This document shows positions 269-63,595 of a DNA stretch of 64,000 nucleotides, in pieces (within the stretch, counting starts at the first letter, position 1; every line of letters starts with the position of its first letter). The position numbers were made by a program, and so were the translations under genes. The DNA comes from a bacterium. Lineage in GTDB: Bacteria > UBP18 > UBA7526. The notes below the pieces were generated by a model that worked only from the letters and a program-made list of their open reading frames with translations, was not told where the DNA came from and ran no database searches. The stretch is taken from assembly GCA_030615855.1 (NCBI GenBank), contig JAUWYL010000001.1:186001-250000 (forward strand), in the 5' to 3' direction.

Positions 269-922
269 ATGGTAAGAAAAGGTTTAGTTACATCTTTTTT
301 AGTAGTACTGGTTACTGGTTACTGGTTACTGGTTACCATTGGTAATGCTTGGGCAGGAATCTATGTCTATACAGATGAGAAGGGACAGATCTATGCTATC
401 TACCAAGAGGAGGGATTGGCGATTGAGACTAAGGAGGATGGCTTTGACTTATTTATAAAAAGATTAGCTGAGAAACATAACCTTGATCCCTTACTGGTTA
501 AGGCGGTCATCAAGGTGGAGAGTGACTTTGAAGTTGAAGCTCTTTCCCGAAAGGGAGCACAAGGCTTAATGCAACTTATGCCCCAGACCGCAGCCCACTT
601 AGGAGTAAAGGATGTCTGGGACCCCCATCACAACATTGAGGGGGGAGTGAAGTATCTACGCAAAATGCTCAATAAGTTTAACAACAATTTGTCTTTGGCT
701 TTGGCAGCCTACAATGCTGGCCCCAATAAGGTTAAGCAGTATGGAAGGATGCCACCCTATCCTGAAACACAACGATTTGTCTGGAAGGTAATAAAGTATT
801 ATCAATACTATAAGGCTCAAAGTAATGCCCTCTATGTTTATACTGATGAAGGTGGGGATCGCTGTTATACCAATATCTTTTCTAATATCCCCAAAGGAGT
901 ATCCTGGAAAAGAATTGATTGA
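269..922 (+). CDS. secreted lytic transglycosylase (SLT/MltE-type) with DUF4124-like segments
   Basis: This 217-residue protein has an N-terminal hydrophobic signal sequence ending near NAWA (about residue 29). A short YVYTDEKGQIY segment follows and is repeated near the C-terminus (LYVYTDEGG). Such segments resemble DUF4124. Residues about 70-185 form a Slt-type lysozyme-like domain. The catalytic Glu is E84 in IKVESDF, followed by GLMQLMPQTA and ALAAYNAGP. It should cleave peptidoglycan glycan strands in the periplasm. Oddly, the signal peptide is partly encoded by a 7-bp tandem repeat (311-337). Its stop overlaps the next frame. Confidence 0.9.
   Translation: MVRKGLVTSFLVVLVTGYWLLVTIGNAWAGIYVYTDEKGQIYAIYQEEGLAIETKEDGFDLFIKRLAEKHNLDPLLVKAVIKVESDFEVEALSRKGAQGLMQLMPQTAAHLGVKDVWDPHHNIEGGVKYLRKMLNKFNNNLSLALAAYNAGPNKVKQYGRMPPYPETQRFVWKVIKYYQYYKAQSNALYVYTDEGGDRCYTNIFSNIPKGVSWKRID
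311..337 (+). repeat. heptamer tandem repeat GTTACTG inside a signal peptide
   Basis: The unit GTTACTG occurs almost four times in a row. Because 7 is not a multiple of 3, each unit is read in a different frame, giving the hydrophobic string VTGYWLLVT. The same heptamer (CAGTAAC on the other strand) recurs in intergenic repeats at about 32804, 35828 and 61690. Confidence 0.9.
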
Positions 923-3624: not shown

Positions 3625-3909
3625 ATGATTAGGTATACTTGTGATATGTGTGGGAGGGAGATAAAGCCTCATACCCTGAGATATAAGGTGAATATTGATG
3701 TTATTGCCGCCTATGATACCTTAGTTATCACTAAGGAGGATTTGAAGAGGGATTTTCAGAAAGAGATTAAGAGACTTCTGGAGAGAATGAAGGATATGGA
3801 TGAAGAGGAACTAATGGAAGATATCTGGAAGAACTTCTCCTTTGATCTCTGCAAGAAGTGTCGGGACATCTATCTTAGAAGCCCCTTGGGTCTGGTAAAC
3901 CCCGTTTAG
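3625..3909 (+). CDS. small zinc-ribbon-like protein of unknown function
   Basis: This 94-residue protein has two CxxC pairs, YTCDMCGREI at the N-terminus and DLCKKCRDIY near the C-terminus, separated by a charged helical stretch. That suggests one zinc site joining the two ends. The ribosome site AGAGGAGG precedes ATG 3625. The last codons (NPV-stop) lie inside the left arm of a CCCCGTTTAGA repeat element. An extra T in that arm relative to other copies makes the TAG stop. The native C-terminus may have been altered by insertion. Confidence 0.6.
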   Translation: MIRYTCDMCGREIKPHTLRYKVNIDVIAAYDTLVITKEDLKRDFQKEIKRLLERMKDMDEEELMEDIWKNFSFDLCKKCRDIYLRSPLGLVNPV

Positions 3910-4007
3910 ACTTTTCAACGAAATTATTGTCAATTCATAGGGTTTGATGGAGTAGATAATAATTGTATAACCGACTAAAAAAGTTTTTGCTCGAAAGTCT
4001 AACGGGG
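3900..4007. mobile_element. inverted-repeat element E1 (CCCCGTTTAGA...TCTAACGGGG)
   Basis: This 108-bp element has arms CCCCGTTTAGACTTT (left) and AAAGTCTAACGGGG (right). It is flanked by TAAA (3896-3899) and TAAG (4008-4011), a near-perfect 4-bp direct repeat. The interior is AT-rich and shares no clear sequence with E2-E4. The left arm contains the stop codon of the upstream gene. Confidence 0.7.
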
Positions 4008-22900: not shown

Positions 22901-23178
22901 TTATTGGGAGTGCATGGATTGAGTTGCATATCCCGGGAGTGAATTCCCTGAAAGGTAAGAGACAGATCATCAAGAGTATAAAGGAGAGAGTAAAGAATAG
23001 ATTTAACGTCTCCATTGCTGAGGTGGAAAAACAGGATCTCTGGCAGAGAGCCACTCTGGGCTTGGCCTGTGTGACAAATAATAAGGCCCAAGCAAATCGC
23101 ACCCTCTCTAAAGTAATCCATTTTATAGAGCAGAATAGAAATATCTCCCTTACAGATTATGAGATAGAAATTATCTAA
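22897..23178 (+). CDS. DUF503 (YlxP-like) protein
   Basis: This 93-residue protein begins [43 protein letters not shown], the diagnostic DUF503 pattern (HIP...SLKxKR...I). A small alpha/beta ferredoxin-like fold is expected. The position between infB and rbfA is the conserved one of YlxP in many bacteria. That suggests a role near ribosome assembly, though no biochemical function is established. It overlaps the infB stop (ATGA). Confidence 0.9.
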   Translation: MIIGSAWIELHIPGVNSLKGKRQIIKSIKERVKNRFNVSIAEVEKQDLWQRATLGLACVTNNKAQANRTLSKVIHFIEQNRNISLTDYEIEII

Positions 23179-23225
23179 AGTGAACCGTGATCCGTGAACA
23201 GTGAACGGTAAAAATGGGGTGAGAA

Positions 23226-23574: not shown

Positions 23575-23683
23575 TCCCGTTAGATGCTGGTCTTTTAATG
23601 AAGTGGAAATAAATGATACATTTAGGATCGCTATTAAAGATATTAGAAAAAGCTATATAACAATATTTGGGAGTCTAACGGGA
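23575..23683. mobile_element. inverted-repeat element E2 (TCCCGTTAGA...TCTAACGGGA)
   Basis: This 109-bp element fills the rbfA-nrnA gap exactly. The arms TCCCGTTAGA and TCTAACGGGA are perfect complements. TGAA occurs on both sides (23571-23574 and 23684-23687). The last base of the element is the A of the nrnA ATG. Confidence 0.75.
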
Positions 23684-30734: not shown

Positions 30735-32807
30735 ATGGCCATAAAAGAGAAGAGAATCAGTGAGATAGAAGGGATTATTCTATTTGCTTTGACTATTTTT
30801 ATTCTCCTTAGCCTTATCTCCTATGAGCCAACGGATATCGCTTATTATCAGCAGCCACCTAATATCCCGGCAGTGAACTGGATGGGGAAGGCCGGTGCTT
30901 ATCTGGCCTTTGGACTGAACTTCGTCATGGGTTATGGCGCCTATCTCATTCTTCTGGTGACTCTTGTCTGGGGAATAAGAAGATTTCGGGGGATGAAGTT
31001 CCATAAGAAGGCCTATCGGGTCTTAGGAGTCTTACTCCTCTTAGTCTCAACCTGCACACTACTTTCCTCAAAATACTCTTTAATCTTAGAAAAAAGATTG
31101 GCATTGGGAGGACATCTGGGAATCGTTCTCTCCAATGGACTGAAGCAGATCTTTGGGGCTTCGGGTGCCTATCTCATTGCAGTAACGGTATTAGTCGTCT
31201 CTTTACCTCTGGCGGCAGAGGTCTCTTATCCCAAGTTCTTTTCTCTGTTGGGAAGAGGAATCCTCTCCTTCTTTCGGGGATTAATAAGGATATTTTCCCG
31301 GAAACCGAGACCAGCCAAGCCGATAGCAATTAAGAGGCCAGAGATTAAAGAGGAGAAGGTTGCTCCTACCCCTAAGAGAGTGAAGAAGGTAACCAAGAAG
31401 ATTCCGGAGGAGGAGAAGGCCTATACTATGCCTGATCTCTCTCTTCTCTCTAAGCCAAAGGCAGAGGAGGCGAAAGAGGACCTTAAGGCAAAGGGTGCTC
31501 TCTTGGAAGAGACTCTCTCTGAGTTTGGGATATCGGCCAAGGTTATTGGCGCTCTTCAGGGTCCAGTCATTACCAGGTTTGAGGTCCAGCCGGCAAAAGG
31601 GGTAACTGTCTCTTCTATTACCTCTCGCTCTAATGACATCGCTCTGAAATTGGCTGCCCCCAGTATCCGTATCGAGGCCCCCATTCCGGGAAAGGCCGCC
31701 TTGGGGATTGAGGTTCCCAACAAGAGGCCTTCCTTTGTCTATCTCTCAGAGATTCTGAGTACCAGGGAGTTCTATGAGTCTCCATCAAAACTTACCCTGG
31801 CATTGGGAAAGGACATAGCCGGTAGACCAGTAATCGCTAATCTGGCTACCATGCCCCATTTATTGATTGCCGGAACCACAGGAAGCGGCAAGAGTGTCTG
31901 TATAAACTGCATCATAAATAGCATCCTGTTTCAGGCAGCACCAGATGAGGTGAAGTTCCTCTTAATCGATCCCAAGAGAGTGGAACTGAAGGCCTATAAT
32001 GATAGCCCCTATCTTCTCACCCCGGTAATTACTGACCCCAAGAAGGCAACTTTTGCTCTGAAGTGGGCGGTGGGGACAGTAGAAGAGAGGTTCAAGTTAT
32101 TCTCTGAGGCCGGGGCCCGGGATATCGAAAACTATAATGCCCTCACCAAGGTAGAGAAAATACCCTACATCATCGTGATCATTGACGAGTTAGCCGATCT
32201 GATGCTCGTGGCTCCTGTAGACTGTGAGCATACCATCACCCGACTGGCCCAGATGGCTCGGGCAGTGGGGATTCACATTGTCCTTGCTACCCAGAGACCA
32301 TCTGTTGACGTCATTACTGGTCTCATTAAGGCCAACTTCCCGGTGAGGATCGCCTTCCAGGTTGCGGCAAGGGTTGATTCTAGGATTGTCTTAGATATGA
32401 GTGGGGCAGAGAAGTTACTGGGAAGAGGGGATATGCTCTTCTCCGACCCTTCAAAGGCCAAACCAATACGTATCCAAGGATCGCTCATTACCGACCCTGA
32501 GATTGAGAGGATGGCAGAGTTTACCCGTTCTCAGGCAGAGCCGCTCTATGTGGAGGACATTTTTGAAAGGAGAGCCCCTTCCTTACCCAGCACCCCAGAG
32601 GAGGACGAATTATATCAGGATGCGGTGAGGGTGGTCATCCAGGCAAGAAGGGCCTCAGTCTCCATGCTACAGAGGAGATTAAAAGTAGGCTATGCCCGGG
32701 CAGCAAGACTGGTCGATATGATGGAGGAGGAAGGGATAGTGGGACCTTATAGGGGAAGCAAGGTGAGGGAAGTACTGGCTGATGAAAGCTACCTCAAAAA
32801 AGAGTAA
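30735..32807 (+). CDS. ftsK: DNA translocase FtsK/SpoIIIE
   Basis: FtsK pumps chromosomal DNA through the division septum and activates Xer recombination at dif. The 690-residue protein has four to five membrane helices (about 10-170), a charged linker, and a RecA-like motor with Walker A GTTGSGKS (about 380-387) and Walker B IVIIDELADLM. A C-terminal winged-helix gamma domain (YARAARLVDMMEEEGIVGPYRGSKVREVL) follows. The TAA stop is part of a GTAACCAGTAACC repeat that begins at the gene end. Its partner XerC is at 8.2 kb. Confidence 0.96.
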   Translation: MAIKEKRISEIEGIILFALTIFILLSLISYEPTDIAYYQQPPNIPAVNWMGKAGAYLAFGLNFVMGYGAYLILLVTLVWGIRRFRGMKFHKKAYRVLGVLLLLVSTCTLLSSKYSLILEKRLALGGHLGIVLSNGLKQIFGASGAYLIAVTVLVVSLPLAAEVSYPKFFSLLGRGILSFFRGLIRIFSRKPRPAKPIAIKRPEIKEEKVAPTPKRVKKVTKKIPEEEKAYTMPDLSLLSKPKAEEAKEDLKAKGALLEETLSEFGISAKVIGALQGPVITRFEVQPAKGVTVSSITSRSNDIALKLAAPSIRIEAPIPGKAALGIEVPNKRPSFVYLSEILSTREFYESPSKLTLALGKDIAGRPVIANLATMPHLLIAGTTGSGKSVCINCIINSILFQAAPDEVKFLLIDPKRVELKAYNDSPYLLTPVITDPKKATFALKWAVGTVEERFKLFSEAGARDIENYNALTKVEKIPYIIVIIDELADLMLVAPVDCEHTITRLAQMARAVGIHIVLATQRPSVDVITGLIKANFPVRIAFQVAARVDSRIVLDMSGAEKLLGRGDMLFSDPSKAKPIRIQGSLITDPEIERMAEFTRSQAEPLYVEDIFERRAPSLPSTPEEDELYQDAVRVVIQARRASVSMLQRRLKVGYARAARLVDMMEEEGIVGPYRGSKVREVLADESYLKKE

Positions 32808-33166
32808 CCAGTAACCAGTTAACAGTAAAAAGTAGGAAAGTAGGAAAGTAAAAGAGTATCAGATTACCAGTATATCAGATGGAGAAGGACAGATATCAGA
32901 ATTCTAAAATCCTAAGCACGAAATCTCTCCGAGCCAGAGGCTCTCTGAGCCGGAGGCCGAAATACTAAACAAGCACAAATGTTCAAAATTCAAATGACCA
33001 AAACAAGAAACAAAGAATTGTCAGTTTAGAAATTTGAAATTAGGATTTAGATATTGTTTAGGATTTCGATATTAGAATTTCGAATTTACCAAATCTGATA
33101 TTCTGACCTTCTGAATACTCATTCTGATGTTCTGATAATCTATAGTTTTACTGGGACTGTAAACTA
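32804..33166. repeat. nested repeat C (ATCAG/CTGAT family) interrupted by element D1
   Basis: The left part (32804-32899: CAGTAACCAG, then AGTATCAGATTACCAG, then GATATCAG) and right part (33089-33166: ATCTGATATTCTGACC, ATTCTGATGTTCTGAT, TTTTACTGGGACTGTAAAC) match the corresponding parts of element B at 61498-61703. About 190 bp of a second repeat family (D1) separates them. The 377-bp gap between ftsK and the rodZ-like gene holds nothing else. Confidence 0.8.
32900..33088. mobile_element. repeat element D1 inserted within repeat C
   Basis: It begins AATTCTAAAATCCTAAGCAC and ends TATTAGAATTTCGAATTTACC. The ends are imperfect inverted complements. The same family is found at 40815-41008 (D2). 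Its interior holds the small hairpin GAGCC-AGA-GGCTC. Confidence 0.75.
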
Positions 33167-35382: not shown

Positions 35383-35838
35383 ATGAAGTGGCTGATTAAG
35401 TTTCTGGCAACGGGATTCTATACTGGTTATACCCCCATTGCTCCAGGAACCGCAGGAAGCCTCATTGGGGTTATCATCTATCTCGGGATGTATAGGCTTT
35501 CTTGGCCTCTTTATCTTTTAATTCTTATCGTTCTTTCTCTTTTTGGAATATGTATTTCAAATAAAGCGACCATCTACTTCTTCAAAGAGAAGGATAGCAA
35601 GAGGATTGTCATTGATGAGATCATTGGCTTCCTGATCGCCATGTTCTTAATTCCCTTCAAGCTTAAATTCATCCTTGTGGCTTTCATTGTCTTTCGGGTG
35701 ATTGATATCTTGAAGCCCTTCCCCTTAAGAAGGTTGGAGAAGCTACCTGGTGGTTGGGGAGTGATGTGTGATGACCTCTTAGCCGGGGTCTATGCTAATC
35801 TAATCGTGCAAGCAATTAGATTAGCGAGTTTACAGTAA
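35383..35838 (+). CDS. pgpA: phosphatidylglycerophosphatase A
   Basis: PgpA dephosphorylates phosphatidylglycerophosphate. The family pattern GFYTGYTPIAPGTAGSLIG, RIVIDEIIGFLIAMF, FRVIDILKPFPLRRLEKLPGGWGVMCDDLLAGVYAN contains the conserved acidic residues. The 151-residue length is typical. The final residues SLQ and the TAA stop fall within the GTTTACAGTAACC start of repeat element A. Confidence 0.93.
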   Translation: MKWLIKFLATGFYTGYTPIAPGTAGSLIGVIIYLGMYRLSWPLYLLILIVLSLFGICISNKATIYFFKEKDSKRIVIDEIIGFLIAMFLIPFKLKFILVAFIVFRVIDILKPFPLRRLEKLPGGWGVMCDDLLAGVYANLIVQAIRLASLQ

Positions 35839-36023
35839 CCAGCGAACAGTAACCAGAAAAACCACAGAATATCAGTATATCAGAACATCAGAATGAGAAT
35901 TCAGAATACCAGATTTAATTTTATAATCTGACTTTCTGATAACTGACCTTCTCTATCTGGTAATCTGGTTATCTGATGCTCTTTTATTTTTTGCTGTTAA
36001 CTGTAAACTGGTTACTGGTTACT
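35828..36023. mobile_element. repeat element A (~195 bp, inverted copy of B)
   Basis: It consists of CAGTAACCAG ends around ATATCAGTATATCAGAACATCAGAAT, an AT-rich centre, and CTGACTTTCTGATAACTGACC...ATCTGGTTATCTGATGCTCTTTTA. The reverse complement of 61498-61703 follows this sequence almost base for base, including the CAGCGAACAGTAACC end. It fills the pgpA-cinA gap. Confidence 0.88.
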
Positions 36024-45631: not shown

Positions 45632-46329
45632 AGACTATGGTCATCATCCCCACCTATAATGAGAGGGAGAACATCGGCCCCTTGCTTGATGAAATTATGA
45701 ACCTTAAAGAAAATATCGAGGCTCTGGTGGTAGATGATAACTCTCCGGATGGCACTTGGAGAATAGTAGGAAATTATTCTAAGAAAAACCCTAGAGTTCA
45801 TCTCTTACGGAGAACCTCTGAGAGAGGACGGGGCCTGGCAGGAATAGCAGGATTTAAGTATGCTTTGGAGAATAAAGCAGATTATGTCATTGAGATGGAT
45901 GGTGATCTTTCCCACAATCCAAAGTATATCCCAGAGTTCTTGAAAAAGATTGAGGATTGCGATGTAGTCATCGGCTCTCGTCTTCTTCCCGGTGGAGGGG
46001 AGGTGGGAAGAGGGTTTTTAAGGCGTCTAATCACCAGGCTGGCTGCCATCTACGTTAGGATTTTATTAGGATTCAAGGTTACAGATCCTACCTCCGGCTA
46101 CCGTTGTTATCGGGGAGAAGTCCTAAGGGCTATAGATATTAAAAGCCTAAAGGCCAGGGATCCTTTCCTCCTCTCTGAGATGCTCCTCAGGTGCTATAAG
46201 AAAAGCTATAGAATTAAAGAAATCCCCATCCTCTTTCAAAATCGGAAATCCGGTGCTTCTAAGATCGGCTGGAAAATCTTGATAACCTATCTCTTCAAGG
46301 TCCTAAAGTTGAGAGTTAGAGGGAAGTGA
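45628..46329 (+). CDS. GT2 polyprenol-phosphate mannose synthase-like
   Basis: The 233-residue GT-A enzyme follows the dolichol-phosphate mannosyltransferase pattern: VIIPTYNERENIGPLL, VVDDNSPDGTW, VIEMDGDLSHNPKYIPEFL, VIGSRLLPGG and DPTSGYRCYRGE. It lacks C-terminal membrane helices, so it is the soluble DPM1 type. It likely makes polyprenyl-phosphate-hexose for the GT39 enzyme at 43075. It overlaps both neighbours by four bases. Confidence 0.9.
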   Translation: MKTMVIIPTYNERENIGPLLDEIMNLKENIEALVVDDNSPDGTWRIVGNYSKKNPRVHLLRRTSERGRGLAGIAGFKYALENKADYVIEMDGDLSHNPKYIPEFLKKIEDCDVVIGSRLLPGGGEVGRGFLRRLITRLAAIYVRILLGFKVTDPTSGYRCYRGEVLRAIDIKSLKARDPFLLSEMLLRCYKKSYRIKEIPILFQNRKSGASKIGWKILITYLFKVLKLRVRGK

Positions 46330-47501
46330 GTATCCCGATCTTAATGTATCATCATGTAAACCCCGTTAGAAGTCCTCGTTGCAAACGAGGCATCCGTCCC
46401 CTTCGGGGTCGGATTACTTCTAACGGGGTAAATGAACTCCCAGATAGTTTTACTATTTCTCCAGATGATTTCCAGAGTCAAATGGAGTACTTAGCAAAAA
46501 AAAATTACCAGACCCTCTTTCTGGATGAGTTAATTAATTCTTTAAAAGAGAGAAAAGAGAAGAGAAAGGTAGCCCTTACCTTTGATGATGGTTATCTTGA
46601 TAACTGGGTCTATGCCTACCCCATCCTGAAGAAGTATAATCTAAGAGCAACCGTCTTTGTCATTACCTCTCGCATTAAAGAGAAGCCTATCTCCTATCGC
46701 CCTAACTTAGAAAATCTCTGGAAGAGGAAAGTTAAGAAAGAAGGGCTTCCCAGGATTTCTAATCACTATCAGAGTAATCTAAGATGTGTCAGGAATCTTG
46801 AAGGTTCAGATGATCATATTACCTGGGAAGAAGCGAAGAAGATGTCTCGAAGCGGTCTGATAGATATCCAGTCCCACAGTTATTTACACAGCTACTGTTA
46901 TGTAAGTGATAAGATAGTCGATTATTATCGAGGACATAAGTGGCGCACGGGCTGGCTTACAGATGGAGATACAAGATTAGGCATCCCGATATATGAGGAT
47001 AAGCCAGCCCTTGCTGGGCAAAGATATTTTGATGATCAGGACTTAAGAAATAGACTGGCAGAATACGTTTCCCAAAGAGGGGAAGGAAAATTCTTTGAAA
47101 AGGAGGATTGGAAGAAGGAATTGGATGGGATAGTAGATGATTATCGGGTGCAAAATGAACTAAAAGATAATTATGAAACTTTAAAAGAGAGAGGGAAGCG
47201 AGTCAAAAGCGAGTTATTACTATCTAAAAATATTGTCGAAGAAAAACTAAATAAAGAATGTAACTTCATCGCCTGGCCAGGAGGGGCATACGATAGTTAT
47301 TTAGTTAAGTGGGCTAGGGAGTGTGGCTATCAAGGAGCAGTAACTACCCAGCCAGGAGCGAATACTTCTAATACCAACCCTATGTATCTCAAGAGGTTTG
47401 AGATTAAGAGAAGGGATCTTGGCTGGTTTAAGAAAAGGCTTTTCATTTACTCCCATAATTTCACGGCCCGATTTTACCCCAAGATAAAGGGGTTATTTTA
47501 A
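46326..47501 (+). CDS. polysaccharide deacetylase (NodB fold) with repeat-encoded insertion
   Basis: NodB motifs are PILMYHHV (start), ALTFDDGYLDNW (motif 1, Asp pair), DIQSHSYLHS (motif 2, HSxxH metal ligands) and FIAWPGGAYDSYL (motif 3). A 24-residue stretch right after MYHHV (NPVRSPRCKRGIRPL onward) is encoded by repeat element E4, read in frame. About 110 residues between motifs 2 and 3 (including WLTDGDTRLGIPIYED) form an extra segment not seen in small NodB enzymes. It probably N-deacetylates a surface glycan. The start is GTG 46326. Confidence 0.85.
   Translation: MSIPILMYHHVNPVRSPRCKRGIRPLRGRITSNGVNELPDSFTISPDDFQSQMEYLAKKNYQTLFLDELINSLKERKEKRKVALTFDDGYLDNWVYAYPILKKYNLRATVFVITSRIKEKPISYRPNLENLWKRKVKKEGLPRISNHYQSNLRCVRNLEGSDDHITWEEAKKMSRSGLIDIQSHSYLHSYCYVSDKIVDYYRGHKWRTGWLTDGDTRLGIPIYEDKPALAGQRYFDDQDLRNRLAEYVSQRGEGKFFEKEDWKKELDGIVDDYRVQNELKDNYETLKERGKRVKSELLLSKNIVEEKLNKECNFIAWPGGAYDSYLVKWARECGYQGAVTTQPGANTSNTNPMYLKRFEIKRRDLGWFKKRLFIYSHNFTARFYPKIKGLF
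46361..46428. mobile_element. inverted-repeat element E4 inside the deacetylase gene
   Basis: This 68-bp element has perfect arms CCCCGTTAGAAGT/ACTTCTAACGGGG. Two internal hairpins, CCTCGTT-GCA-AACGAGG and TCCG-T-CCCC-TTC-GGGG-T-CGGA, would give a cloverleaf-like fold. TAAA flanks both sides (46357-46360, 46429-46432). Element plus one flank is 72 bp, so the frame is kept. Confidence 0.85.
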
Positions 47502-50340: not shown

Positions 50341-51483
50341 ATGAAAGTTGCTTTAGTTCGTCAGAGTTATCATAAATACGGAGGGGCGGAGAGGTATGTA
50401 AGTTACCTGGCAGAGGGGTTCTTGAAAAGAGGCCATAAGGTCCACGTCTTTGCCAGAAAGTGGGATCCCAGTGCCCCAAAAGGGATTATCTTCCATAGGG
50501 TTCCTACCCTAAAAGGCCCCTCTTTTTTAAAAGCTTTGAGTTTTGCCTCCAATGTGAAAAGATTATTGGAAGGGAAGAAATTTGATATCATTAATAGTTT
50601 TGATCGCACTCTCTATCAGGATGTTTACCGTGCTGGAGATGGGGTTCATAGAGAGTGGAGGAAGAGACTTTTAGAGATTACTCCTAATCTCCTAATCAGA
50701 CTCTTGATCCTTATCAACCCTTTACATCTAAGCCTCCTTTTCTTAGAAAAAAGAATCTTTCAAGAGAATAATTATAAGAAGATAATTGCCATATCAAAGA
50801 AGGGTAAAGAGGAGATTATAAAGTATTACGGAGTCTGTCCAGAGGATATTATTGTCATCTATAATGGGGTGAATCTGGAGGAGTTTCATCCCAAAAATAA
50901 GGCCTTATTCAGAGAGGAGATAAGAAAAGAATTTGGTATTTCTGAAGAGGAATTTCTCGTTTTGTTTGTGGGAAGTGGCTATAGGAGGAAGGGGTTGAGA
51001 TACTTGATTGAGGCCGTTTCTCTCCTAAAGGACGAAAAACCATTAAAAGTATTAGTAGTGGCAAAGGGCAAGAAAAGAGCGTACTTAAGATTAGCAAAAA
51101 AGCTGGGAATAAGAAGTAAAATAATCTTTGCTGGGGGAAGAAAAGACTTAAGAAAGTTCTATGCAGCAAGTGATCTTTTCGTTCTTCCCACTATCTATGA
51201 ACCATTTGGCAATGTCTGTCTGGAGACCCTGGCCAGTGGGCTTCCCATTATTGTGAGTAAAGCGAGCGGAGCAGCAGAGATTATTACAGAAGGAGAGAAC
51301 GGGCTCCTCCTAAAGAATCCCAGAGATCCCCAAGAACTAGCTAAAAAGATTAAACAAACTTTTGATAATAATTTTAGAGAAGAATTAAGTAAAAACGCCC
51401 GGATTTTAGCTGAGAATTTTACCGTGGATAAGAATGTAGAAAGGACATTAAAAGTCTACCAGGAAGTGATCGGTGAACAGTAA
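50341..51483 (+). CDS. GT4 glycosyltransferase
   Basis: The 380-residue GT-B enzyme starts MKVALVRQSYHKYGGAERYVSYLAEGFLKRGHKVHVFARKW, close to the WaaG/RfaG-like LPS glucosyltransferase pattern. The C-domain has LFVGSGYRRKGLRYLIEAVSLL and the intact E-x7-E (YEPFGNVCLETLASGLPIIVSKASGAAEII). ATG 50341 is preferred over TTG 50326, though the ribosome site is weak. The last residues VIGEQ and the TAA stop are part of a GGTGAACAG repeat. Confidence 0.88.
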   Translation: MKVALVRQSYHKYGGAERYVSYLAEGFLKRGHKVHVFARKWDPSAPKGIIFHRVPTLKGPSFLKALSFASNVKRLLEGKKFDIINSFDRTLYQDVYRAGDGVHREWRKRLLEITPNLLIRLLILINPLHLSLLFLEKRIFQENNYKKIIAISKKGKEEIIKYYGVCPEDIIVIYNGVNLEEFHPKNKALFREEIRKEFGISEEEFLVLFVGSGYRRKGLRYLIEAVSLLKDEKPLKVLVVAKGKKRAYLRLAKKLGIRSKIIFAGGRKDLRKFYAASDLFVLPTIYEPFGNVCLETLASGLPIIVSKASGAAEIITEGENGLLLKNPRDPQELAKKIKQTFDNNFREELSKNARILAENFTVDKNVERTLKVYQEVIGEQ

Positions 51484-51620
51484 TCGGTGAACGGTGATCG
51501 GTGAACGGTGATCGGTGAATAGAATAGCTATCAAGCAATTAAGCCATTAAGAATAAGGATCAAGCATTCAGTATCTGTGATCTGTGTTAATCTGTAATAA
51601 ATCTGTGCGAATCTGTGTCT
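51478..51620. repeat. ATCGGTGAACGGTG tandem repeats and ATCTGTG strings
   Basis: Three units of ATCGGTGAACGGTG-type sequence begin within the upstream gene's stop. CTGTGATCTGTGTTAATCTGT and CTGTGCGAATCTGTGTCTAAGGAG follow, the last of which includes the ribosome site of the next gene. The same CGTCTAAGGAG ending occurs before gmhA (63580-63589). Confidence 0.75.
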
Positions 51621-60907: not shown

Positions 60908-60931
60908 ATGAATCCCGTTAGACCTTTCTAA
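60908..60931 (+). other. seven-codon micro-ORF at the left end of element E3
   Basis: ATG-AAT-CCC-GTT-AGA-CCT-TTC-TAA (MNPVRPF) follows an AAAGGAGGAAAAAGGGGAAGTT ribosome site. It is probably the disrupted original start of the DUF4254 gene: ATGAA here matches ATGAA at 61024-61028. A leader peptide role is possible but not supported further. Confidence 0.4.
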
Positions 60932-61024
60932 AGTCTAACGGGATTAAATCGGAAAATTTTGGAATATGCCAAGTAAGTTATCTTTTTATACTCTTTACTC
61001 GTAAACTAAGGAGGTCTAACGGGA
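60913..61024. mobile_element. inverted-repeat element E3 (TCCCGTTAGAC...GTCTAACGGGA)
   Basis: This 112-bp element is bounded by TCCCGTTAGAC (60913) and GTCTAACGGGA (ending 61024) and flanked by TGAA (60909-60912 and 61025-61028). An extra right arm (GTCTAACGGGA, 60933-60943) makes a tight hairpin with the left arm. The right end carries AAGGAGG, a new ribosome site, and the A of the next ATG. Confidence 0.75.
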
Positions 61025-61230: not shown

Positions 61231-61493
61231 TGGCGGAGACTATTGGGAGTTTAGTGGATAAAATAAGCATCTTTGAACAGAAGTGCTTCCATATGAAGGA
61301 AGAGACAAAGAGAAAGGATGTTTCTAAAAAGCATGTCGGAGAATGTAAAAAGAAACTTTTGATATTAAAGAGGCAGCGCAACGACTTAGTAGAAGAACTT
61401 GATGAACTATTCATGGATATTCTATCTGGAAAGAAAAAGCTAAAGGTCTATAAGCAATTCAAGATGTATAATCTACCAGAGTATATAAAATAA
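61230..61493 (+). CDS. DUF4254-like small helical protein, copy 2
   Basis: The 87-residue product is a diverged tandem paralogue of the previous gene (TIGSLVDKISIFEQKCFHMKEE aligned to [21 protein letters not shown], and LKRQRNDLVEELDELF to [16 protein letters not shown]). The Trp-His pair of copy 1 is changed to Phe-His, and a C-terminal tail (KKLKVYKQFKMYNLPEYIK) is added. The two may form a heterodimer. The role is unknown. Confidence 0.65.
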   Translation: MAETIGSLVDKISIFEQKCFHMKEETKRKDVSKKHVGECKKKLLILKRQRNDLVEELDELFMDILSGKKKLKVYKQFKMYNLPEYIK

Positions 61494-61497
61494 AGAA

Positions 61498-61703
61498 GTT
61501 TACAGTAACCAGTTTACAGTTTACAGCAAAAAAGTAAAAGAGCATCAGATAATCAGATTATCAGATGGAAAAGGTCAGTTATCAGAAGGTCAGATTGAAA
61601 ACATTGAATCTGGTATTCTGAATTCTCATTCTGAGATTCTGATGTTCTGATATACTGATATTCTATGGTTTTGCTGGTTACTGTTCGCTGGTTACTGGTT
61701 ACT
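61498..61703. mobile_element. repeat element B (inverted copy of A)
   Basis: It starts GTTTACAGTAACCAG and ends GCTGGTTACTGGTTACT. The interior has AGCATCAGATAATCAGATTATCAG and GATTCTGATGTTCTGATATACTGATATTC. Read on the minus strand it follows element A (35828-36023) nearly base for base. It fills the DUF4254-GT9 gap. Confidence 0.88.
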
Positions 61704-63468: not shown

Positions 63469-63484
63469 AAGTGTGATATACTCT

Positions 63485-63530
63485 CTTACAGTGAACAGTG
63501 ATCGGTGAACAGTGAACGGTTTATCTGTGG
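63485..63530. repeat. CAGTGAACAGTGATCGGTGAAC repeat before gmhA
   Basis: Short GTGAACAGTGATCGGTGAACAGTGAACGG units occupy the DUF3108-gmhA gap. Strings resembling the end of 51575-51620 (CGCGTCTAAGGAG) follow. It belongs to the CGGTGAACGG family. Confidence 0.7.
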
Positions 63531-63595
63531 TCATCAGCGTTTCCTAAGCCCACGCAGTGAGCAATACAAAGAAATCCGCGTCTAAGGAGAGGGAA

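Follow-up and report, generated by a model that had tools for sequence, protein, structure and literature searches.

A 68-bp palindromic element lies in frame within a polysaccharide deacetylase gene and very probably belongs to a family of non-autonomous, protein-compatible MITEs whose insertion genes can survive, thanks to a frame-neutral length and stop-free frames; that the inserts are translated and tolerated is inferred. The family inserts with 4-bp YNNR duplications, and the same sites are found filled or empty among sister genomes.

The element in the deacetylase gene

The host gene occupies positions 46326..47501 (+ strand) of the window, by which we mean the whole 64,000-nt stretch of DNA analysed, and is assigned from its open reading frame, Pfam and homologues: The 391-residue product, 24 inserted residues included, matches PF01522 with an E-value of 1.2e-23. 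The insert comprises a 68-bp palindromic core (46361..46428, +), which is delineated by sequence, translation, fold and other copies and reads PVRSPRCKRGIRPLRGRITSNGV in the host frame, and is flanked by two TAAA copies, the left one (46357..46360, +) supported by sequence, sister sites and family flanks, the right one (46429..46432, +) by sequence and family flanks. From left to right, the core consists of the left arm CCCCGTTAGAAGT (46361..46373, +), reading PVRS in the host frame and TAG in the third phase, internal hairpin 1 (CCTCGTTGCAAACGAGG; 46374..46390, +) with covariation in 5 of 7 pairs across copies, internal hairpin 2 (ATCCGTCCCCTTCGGGGTCGGAT; 46392..46414, +) with covariation in 4 of 9 pairs, and the right arm ACTTCTAACGGGG (46416..46428, +), reading TSNG. 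The arms are perfect over 13 bp, or 14 with the flanking A/T, and the element strand has a folding energy of -44.8 kcal/mol compared with -20.0 +/- 3.3 for dinucleotide shuffles (z = -7.5). Core and one TAAA copy add up to 72 nt, which the host frame reads as 24 codons, none of them a stop. The earlier note on this DNA had described exactly this architecture and had read it as a frame-preserving addition of 24 residues; the description is borne out by the sequence and the reading by the translation. No Rfam family matches the element, which by this test is not a known structured RNA, and a plasmid search yielded no match for it.

Five deacetylases from sister genomes, one from the closest named relative, bacterium UBP18_UBA7526, and four from MAGs, align over their full length at 74-75% identity and all have exactly 24 residues, or 72 nt, fewer at this site. 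At the junction the sisters read ..YHHVNELKD.., the filled gene ..YHHVNPVRSPRCKRGIRPLRGRITSNGVNELPD.., in agreement with the earlier proposal that the insert directly follows MYHHV and that its removal restores HVNEL. Distant homologues carrying the same 24 residues would have refuted that proposal, and the insert is present in none of nine more distant deacetylases. The 72-nt segment is an insertion. The empty sites of the sisters, GTGAA[C/T]G, are near but not identical to the GTAAATG expected before insertion, and the 4-bp duplication at this site is inferred from the two TAAA copies. An AlphaFold2 model, run on an alignment of deacetylase homologues, has a mean pLDDT of 85.6 with values below 50 for residues 16-39 near the insert: The insert is predicted to be a disordered loop, the rest of the fold being modelled with confidence.

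Family members and the insertion signature

A covariance model built on 17 copies was searched against six genomes of the phylum, all of them incomplete MAGs, and 70 arm-bounded sites with the ends CCCCGTTAGA..TCTAACGGGG and core lengths of 54-107 bp were found. By interior sequence and score we divided these into 54 two-hairpin copies and 16 sites with arms only or other interiors; the division is our own, and lone pieces were left out of the copy count. Exact 4-bp duplications flank 30 of the 70 sites, whereas 2000 flank shuffles averaged 4.8 such sites and never exceeded 13. All 30 fit YNNR, a pattern also seen in the left flank at 66 and in the right flank at 67 of the 70 sites. With terminal inverted repeats, a fixed 4-bp target duplication, multiple copies and no transposase gene in the cores, the family meets these criteria for MITEs. 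Inverted ends combined with a fixed-length duplication are characteristic of DDE-type transposases; as to an autonomous partner with the same ends, the profiles PF01609 and PF13701, the only transposase families tried, found no match in the six genomes.

Insertion can also be read from sites that differ between genomes. The MurA insert occurs in G003 and in none of the five other genomes: G001 has the empty site GGTAAAGAGG, G003 the filled one, GGTAAC, element, TAAAGAGG, in which the left copy has changed by one base; the pair confirms the duplication. Four genomes, G002-G005, lack the NnrDE insert, among them G004 at 98% identity. The filled NnrDE gene (..LLAKEKA-NPIGSPRQRRGIRPLRGRITSNGA-RVKVFLL..) and a hydrogenase-gamma-like oxidoreductase gene (MRNL-YPVRSPRQRRGIRSRKGRITSNEV-YLPIEAR..) harbor the only two other full-length copies in the genome of the deacetylase, both in frame and with the same peptide as the deacetylase insert in unrelated genes. 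The search suggested in the earlier note, for NPVRS..SNGV inserts in unrelated families of the same lineage, thereby met with these two and about 27 more in the phylum, and its central idea of an element acting as a protein-coding insertion is supported by the empty sisters and the recurring peptide, translation being inferred. What that note did not contain is the YNNR rule, the existence of a second open phase, the spacing of lengths by multiples of three, hairpin covariation and the occurrence in essential genes.

The window contains three arms-only relatives. The one at 3900..4007 has a different interior and the flanks TAAA and TAAG, the one at 23575..23683 (TCCCGTTAGA..TCTAACGGGA) has an exact TGAA duplication, and so does the one at 60913..61024, which has an extra internal arm at 60934 and whose right TGAA copy overlaps the ATG that starts the next reading frame. 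A different repeat class is present as dispersed arrays of short GTGAACA/GTTACTG/AGTAACC-like units (window 278-336, 23176-23220, 32798-32927, 35827-36022, 51469-51527, 61492-61702 and 63484-63534). Arms of the same CCCCGTTAGA type occur in five contigs of the viral collection IMG/VR (L169-L173), some of these elements having 4-bp YNNR duplications (CTCA, TCTG). The arm type may, and probably does, reach beyond the phylum; no cross-phylum search of the two-hairpin family was made. Hairpin 2 alone (CATCCGTCCCCTTCGGGGTCGGAT), without arms, lies beside a tRNA gene in two genera (L004, G000:C35:8955-8978, one of the uncounted lone pieces; L147, G001:C98:7923-7947), and the tRNA gene looks like the same one in both. 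This lone hairpin is possibly a source or a remnant of the element interior.

Reading frames, hairpins and host genes

Core length plus four is a multiple of three in 52 of the 54 two-hairpin copies, the frame-neutral cores measuring 62, 65, 68, 71, 74, 80, 98 and 104 bp; the exceptions (54 and 76 bp) both lie outside verified genes. Copies and their lengths are related by descent, so a binomial test on divisibility by three overstates the case, and it is safer to count length classes, of which eight are frame-neutral and two are not. On either strand, the arms can be read through in two of the three codon phases: Phase 2 reads PVRS..TSNG and phase 1 [T/A]PLE..LTG, whereas phase 0 hits TAG. 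The 30 coding copies comprise 24 in phase 2 and six in phase 1, and when each element was excised in silico, no recognisable gene turned out to hold an internal phase-0 insertion. Two phase-0 cases, in Rho and a second ORF, lie at the last codons, where the arm supplies the stop; in the terminator Rho (L183, G003:C45:51344-51407) the TAG of the arm is the stop codon. Both the phase and the divisibility figures mix survival with insertion. The four usable frames are stop-free in 81, 94, 93 and 72% of copies, compared with 58-66% when the interiors are shuffled, and are open about equally often in copies outside verified genes; the open frames seem to belong to the family as a whole rather than to individual copies.

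Compensatory changes preserve the hairpins: Covariation affects 12 of 30 pairs and amounts to 36 double-change cells, compared with 8.9 after shuffling; none of 500 shuffles reached 36. Three orthologous insert pairs have 15 non-synonymous and seven synonymous differences, their flanks 117 and 186. The insert peptide seems little constrained, and the pattern, small as the numbers are, is more in keeping with a tolerated passenger than with a useful domain. Two inserts in RodA orthologues (L136, G001:C70:4451-4520; L179, G002:C4:14477-14552) have common arms and hairpin 2, and a 6-nt difference in hairpin 1 that preserves pairing: At a single insertion site, the interior has changed by a multiple of three.

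At least 30 of the 54 two-hairpin copies are read in frame through unrelated, often essential genes, in both orientations. Hosts supported by Pfam include MurA, RodA (two species), SufC, MoaA, FolC, RpoN, RluD, NnrDE, Xaa-Pro dipeptidase, hydrogenase gamma, Memo-AMMECR1, N-acetylmuramoyl amidase, an outer-membrane efflux protein, a RecB-like nuclease (two species) and a histone-deacetylase-like enzyme (two species). Within the 30, L145, L141 and L177 have only a long ORF with weak or absent Pfam support, and L134 as well as L189 and L160, orthologues of scanned proteins, were not scanned by Pfam; ORFs with the element upstream of the likely start (L149, L162, L176, L187, L192) were excluded. 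The ORFs are full-length with strong domain scores (EPSP_synthase 383 bits, FTSW_RODA 334 bits). Many inserts occupy tolerant spots such as domain linkers, loops and positions after signal peptides or near termini, and when MurA, SufC, Nnr and Xaa-Pro dipeptidase are aligned with solved homologues, the gap falls at the insert.

Three single loci were observed alongside. In a type IV pilin-like gene (L140, G003:C21:27066-27135), a phase-1 element gives MKKRGF-TPLEII..SPTG-LTLIEIL: With TPLE contributed by the arm, GFTPLE mimics the prepilin motif GFTLIE, and the hydrophobic helix is shifted by about 22 residues. In the sigma-54 gene rpoN (L200, G002:C93:2822-3000), an inner GPVRG..SNGA copy is apparently nested within an outer TPLEA..GRPLTG copy, and the combined insert stays in frame. 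Orthologous hydrogenase-gamma genes of two genera carry elements at the same site (L003, G000:C22:2334-2403; L189, G001:C43:308-413) in opposite orientations and with different interiors; either two independent insertions into one TTTA-like site or an inversion between the arms would account for this.

Explanations and known systems

We weighed three other readings of these data. That the 24 residues are native functional protein sequence and the palindrome a product of chance could draw on the open frame and the intact host domain; with the insert absent from 14 homologues, the same peptide in unrelated families, and target duplications next to empty sites, this reading retains practically no probability, and the insert-free homologues and empty sites had already refuted it. 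A reading in which transcription includes the insert and translation leaves it out, with the ribosome bypassing the hairpin or the mRNA losing it so that the host protein stays unchanged, would accommodate the very stable RNA-level fold, the hairpin covariation and essential hosts such as MurA. An element that is bypassed or excised, however, needs neither frame nor open codons, yet 52 of 54 lengths are frame-neutral, no internal phase-0 copy occurs in genes, four frames are open more often than in shuffles and no Rfam family matches; we consider such bypass or removal very unlikely. We give still scanter credence to the idea that the insertions mark relaxed or decaying host genes. Sensitive places are indeed altered, for instance the pilin N-terminus of L140 and C-terminal tails, but the hosts are full-length ORFs with strong domain scores, orthologue pairs of the RecB-like and histone-deacetylase-like enzymes have a common insert with the ORF intact in both genomes, and G003 contains no second strong MurA match.

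For the protein-compatible MITE, our preferred reading, the following mechanism is inferred. A DDE-type transposase supplied in trans, whose gene has not been identified, would recognize the CCCCGTTAGA arms. Insertions in the closed phase or of wrong length would be purged because they break genes, while those in an open phase would give a basic, Pro/Gly/Ser-rich disordered loop that the protein tolerates, which would open most of the genome (about 90% coding) to the element. Preferential targeting of genes is not needed: Given that ORFs of at least 120 aa cover about 90% of the window, near-random insertion and loss of gene-breaking copies suffice for the share of surviving copies in genes. 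In the weakest step, the hairpins are probably kept because the folded single strand matters to transposition or holds the arms together. On whether the element lineage itself evolved to live inside protein genes, we are evenly divided; in such a course, interiors would change almost only in 3-nt steps with compensatory pairing, and the four frames would be stop-free even in copies now outside genes. If true, the strategy of Rickettsia palindromic elements (RPEs) would have arisen independently in an uncultured candidate phylum, here with a transposition signature that can be read.

REP/RAYT palindromes carry a GTAG or CGTC tag and rely on a Y1 transposase that leaves no target duplication; they were rejected on ends and duplications alone, the present ends being CCCCGTTAGA with 4-bp duplications. 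The NCBIfam library includes RPE models, and a scan of insert and host gave no RPE match. We accordingly file the family, by analogy only, as a MITE that works like RPEs and Wolbachia palindromic elements (WPEs) and not as an RPE. RPEs are short stem-loop repeats that interrupt many conserved, mutually unrelated genes without breaking the frame (Ogata 2000/2002; reviewed in PMC2229807, PMC10969869), and a tested RPE host, Gmk, is active with its insert (PMC2229807). The present family likewise consists of short palindromes with inverted ends, in frame in many unrelated conserved genes. RPEs, however, measure 105-146 bp with inverted ends of about 12 bp and a target duplication listed as unknown (PMC2229807), whereas the present cores mostly span 62-104 bp, have other ends and show explicit YNNR duplications of 4 bp, and their hosts belong to an uncultured candidate phylum instead of Rickettsia. 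WPEs (Ogata 2005; PMC4224334) are similar in being palindromic inserts in frame and without premature stops in conserved genes; they belong to the same order as Rickettsia, and the intervals given in PMC4224334 are longer than the present cores. Coding potential outside Rickettsiales is a further likeness to intragenic ERIC/RU elements, which are also palindromic repeats, and is ascribed to the palindromic repeats of Methanocaldococcus jannaschii in the work cited by PMC2229807 (Suyama 2005). PARCEL (PMC2996958) resembles the family as dyad-symmetric DNA coding for a protein module, but consists of tandem amphipathic domains, mostly in membrane-protein ORFs, in contrast to single inserts with target duplications in unrelated enzymes. 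No earlier description of such elements in this phylum was found in the open-access literature, subscription journals being outside the scope. Gene models and structure predictions from such genomes have to be read with the warning that they include loops of recent origin that probably have no function. The best-known protein-coding palindromes are those of Rickettsiales, whose mode of spread is unresolved and whose target duplication is listed as unknown (PMC2229807); here, clean pairs of empty and filled sites, the YNNR rule and sisters one insertion apart make spread through coding sequence directly readable.
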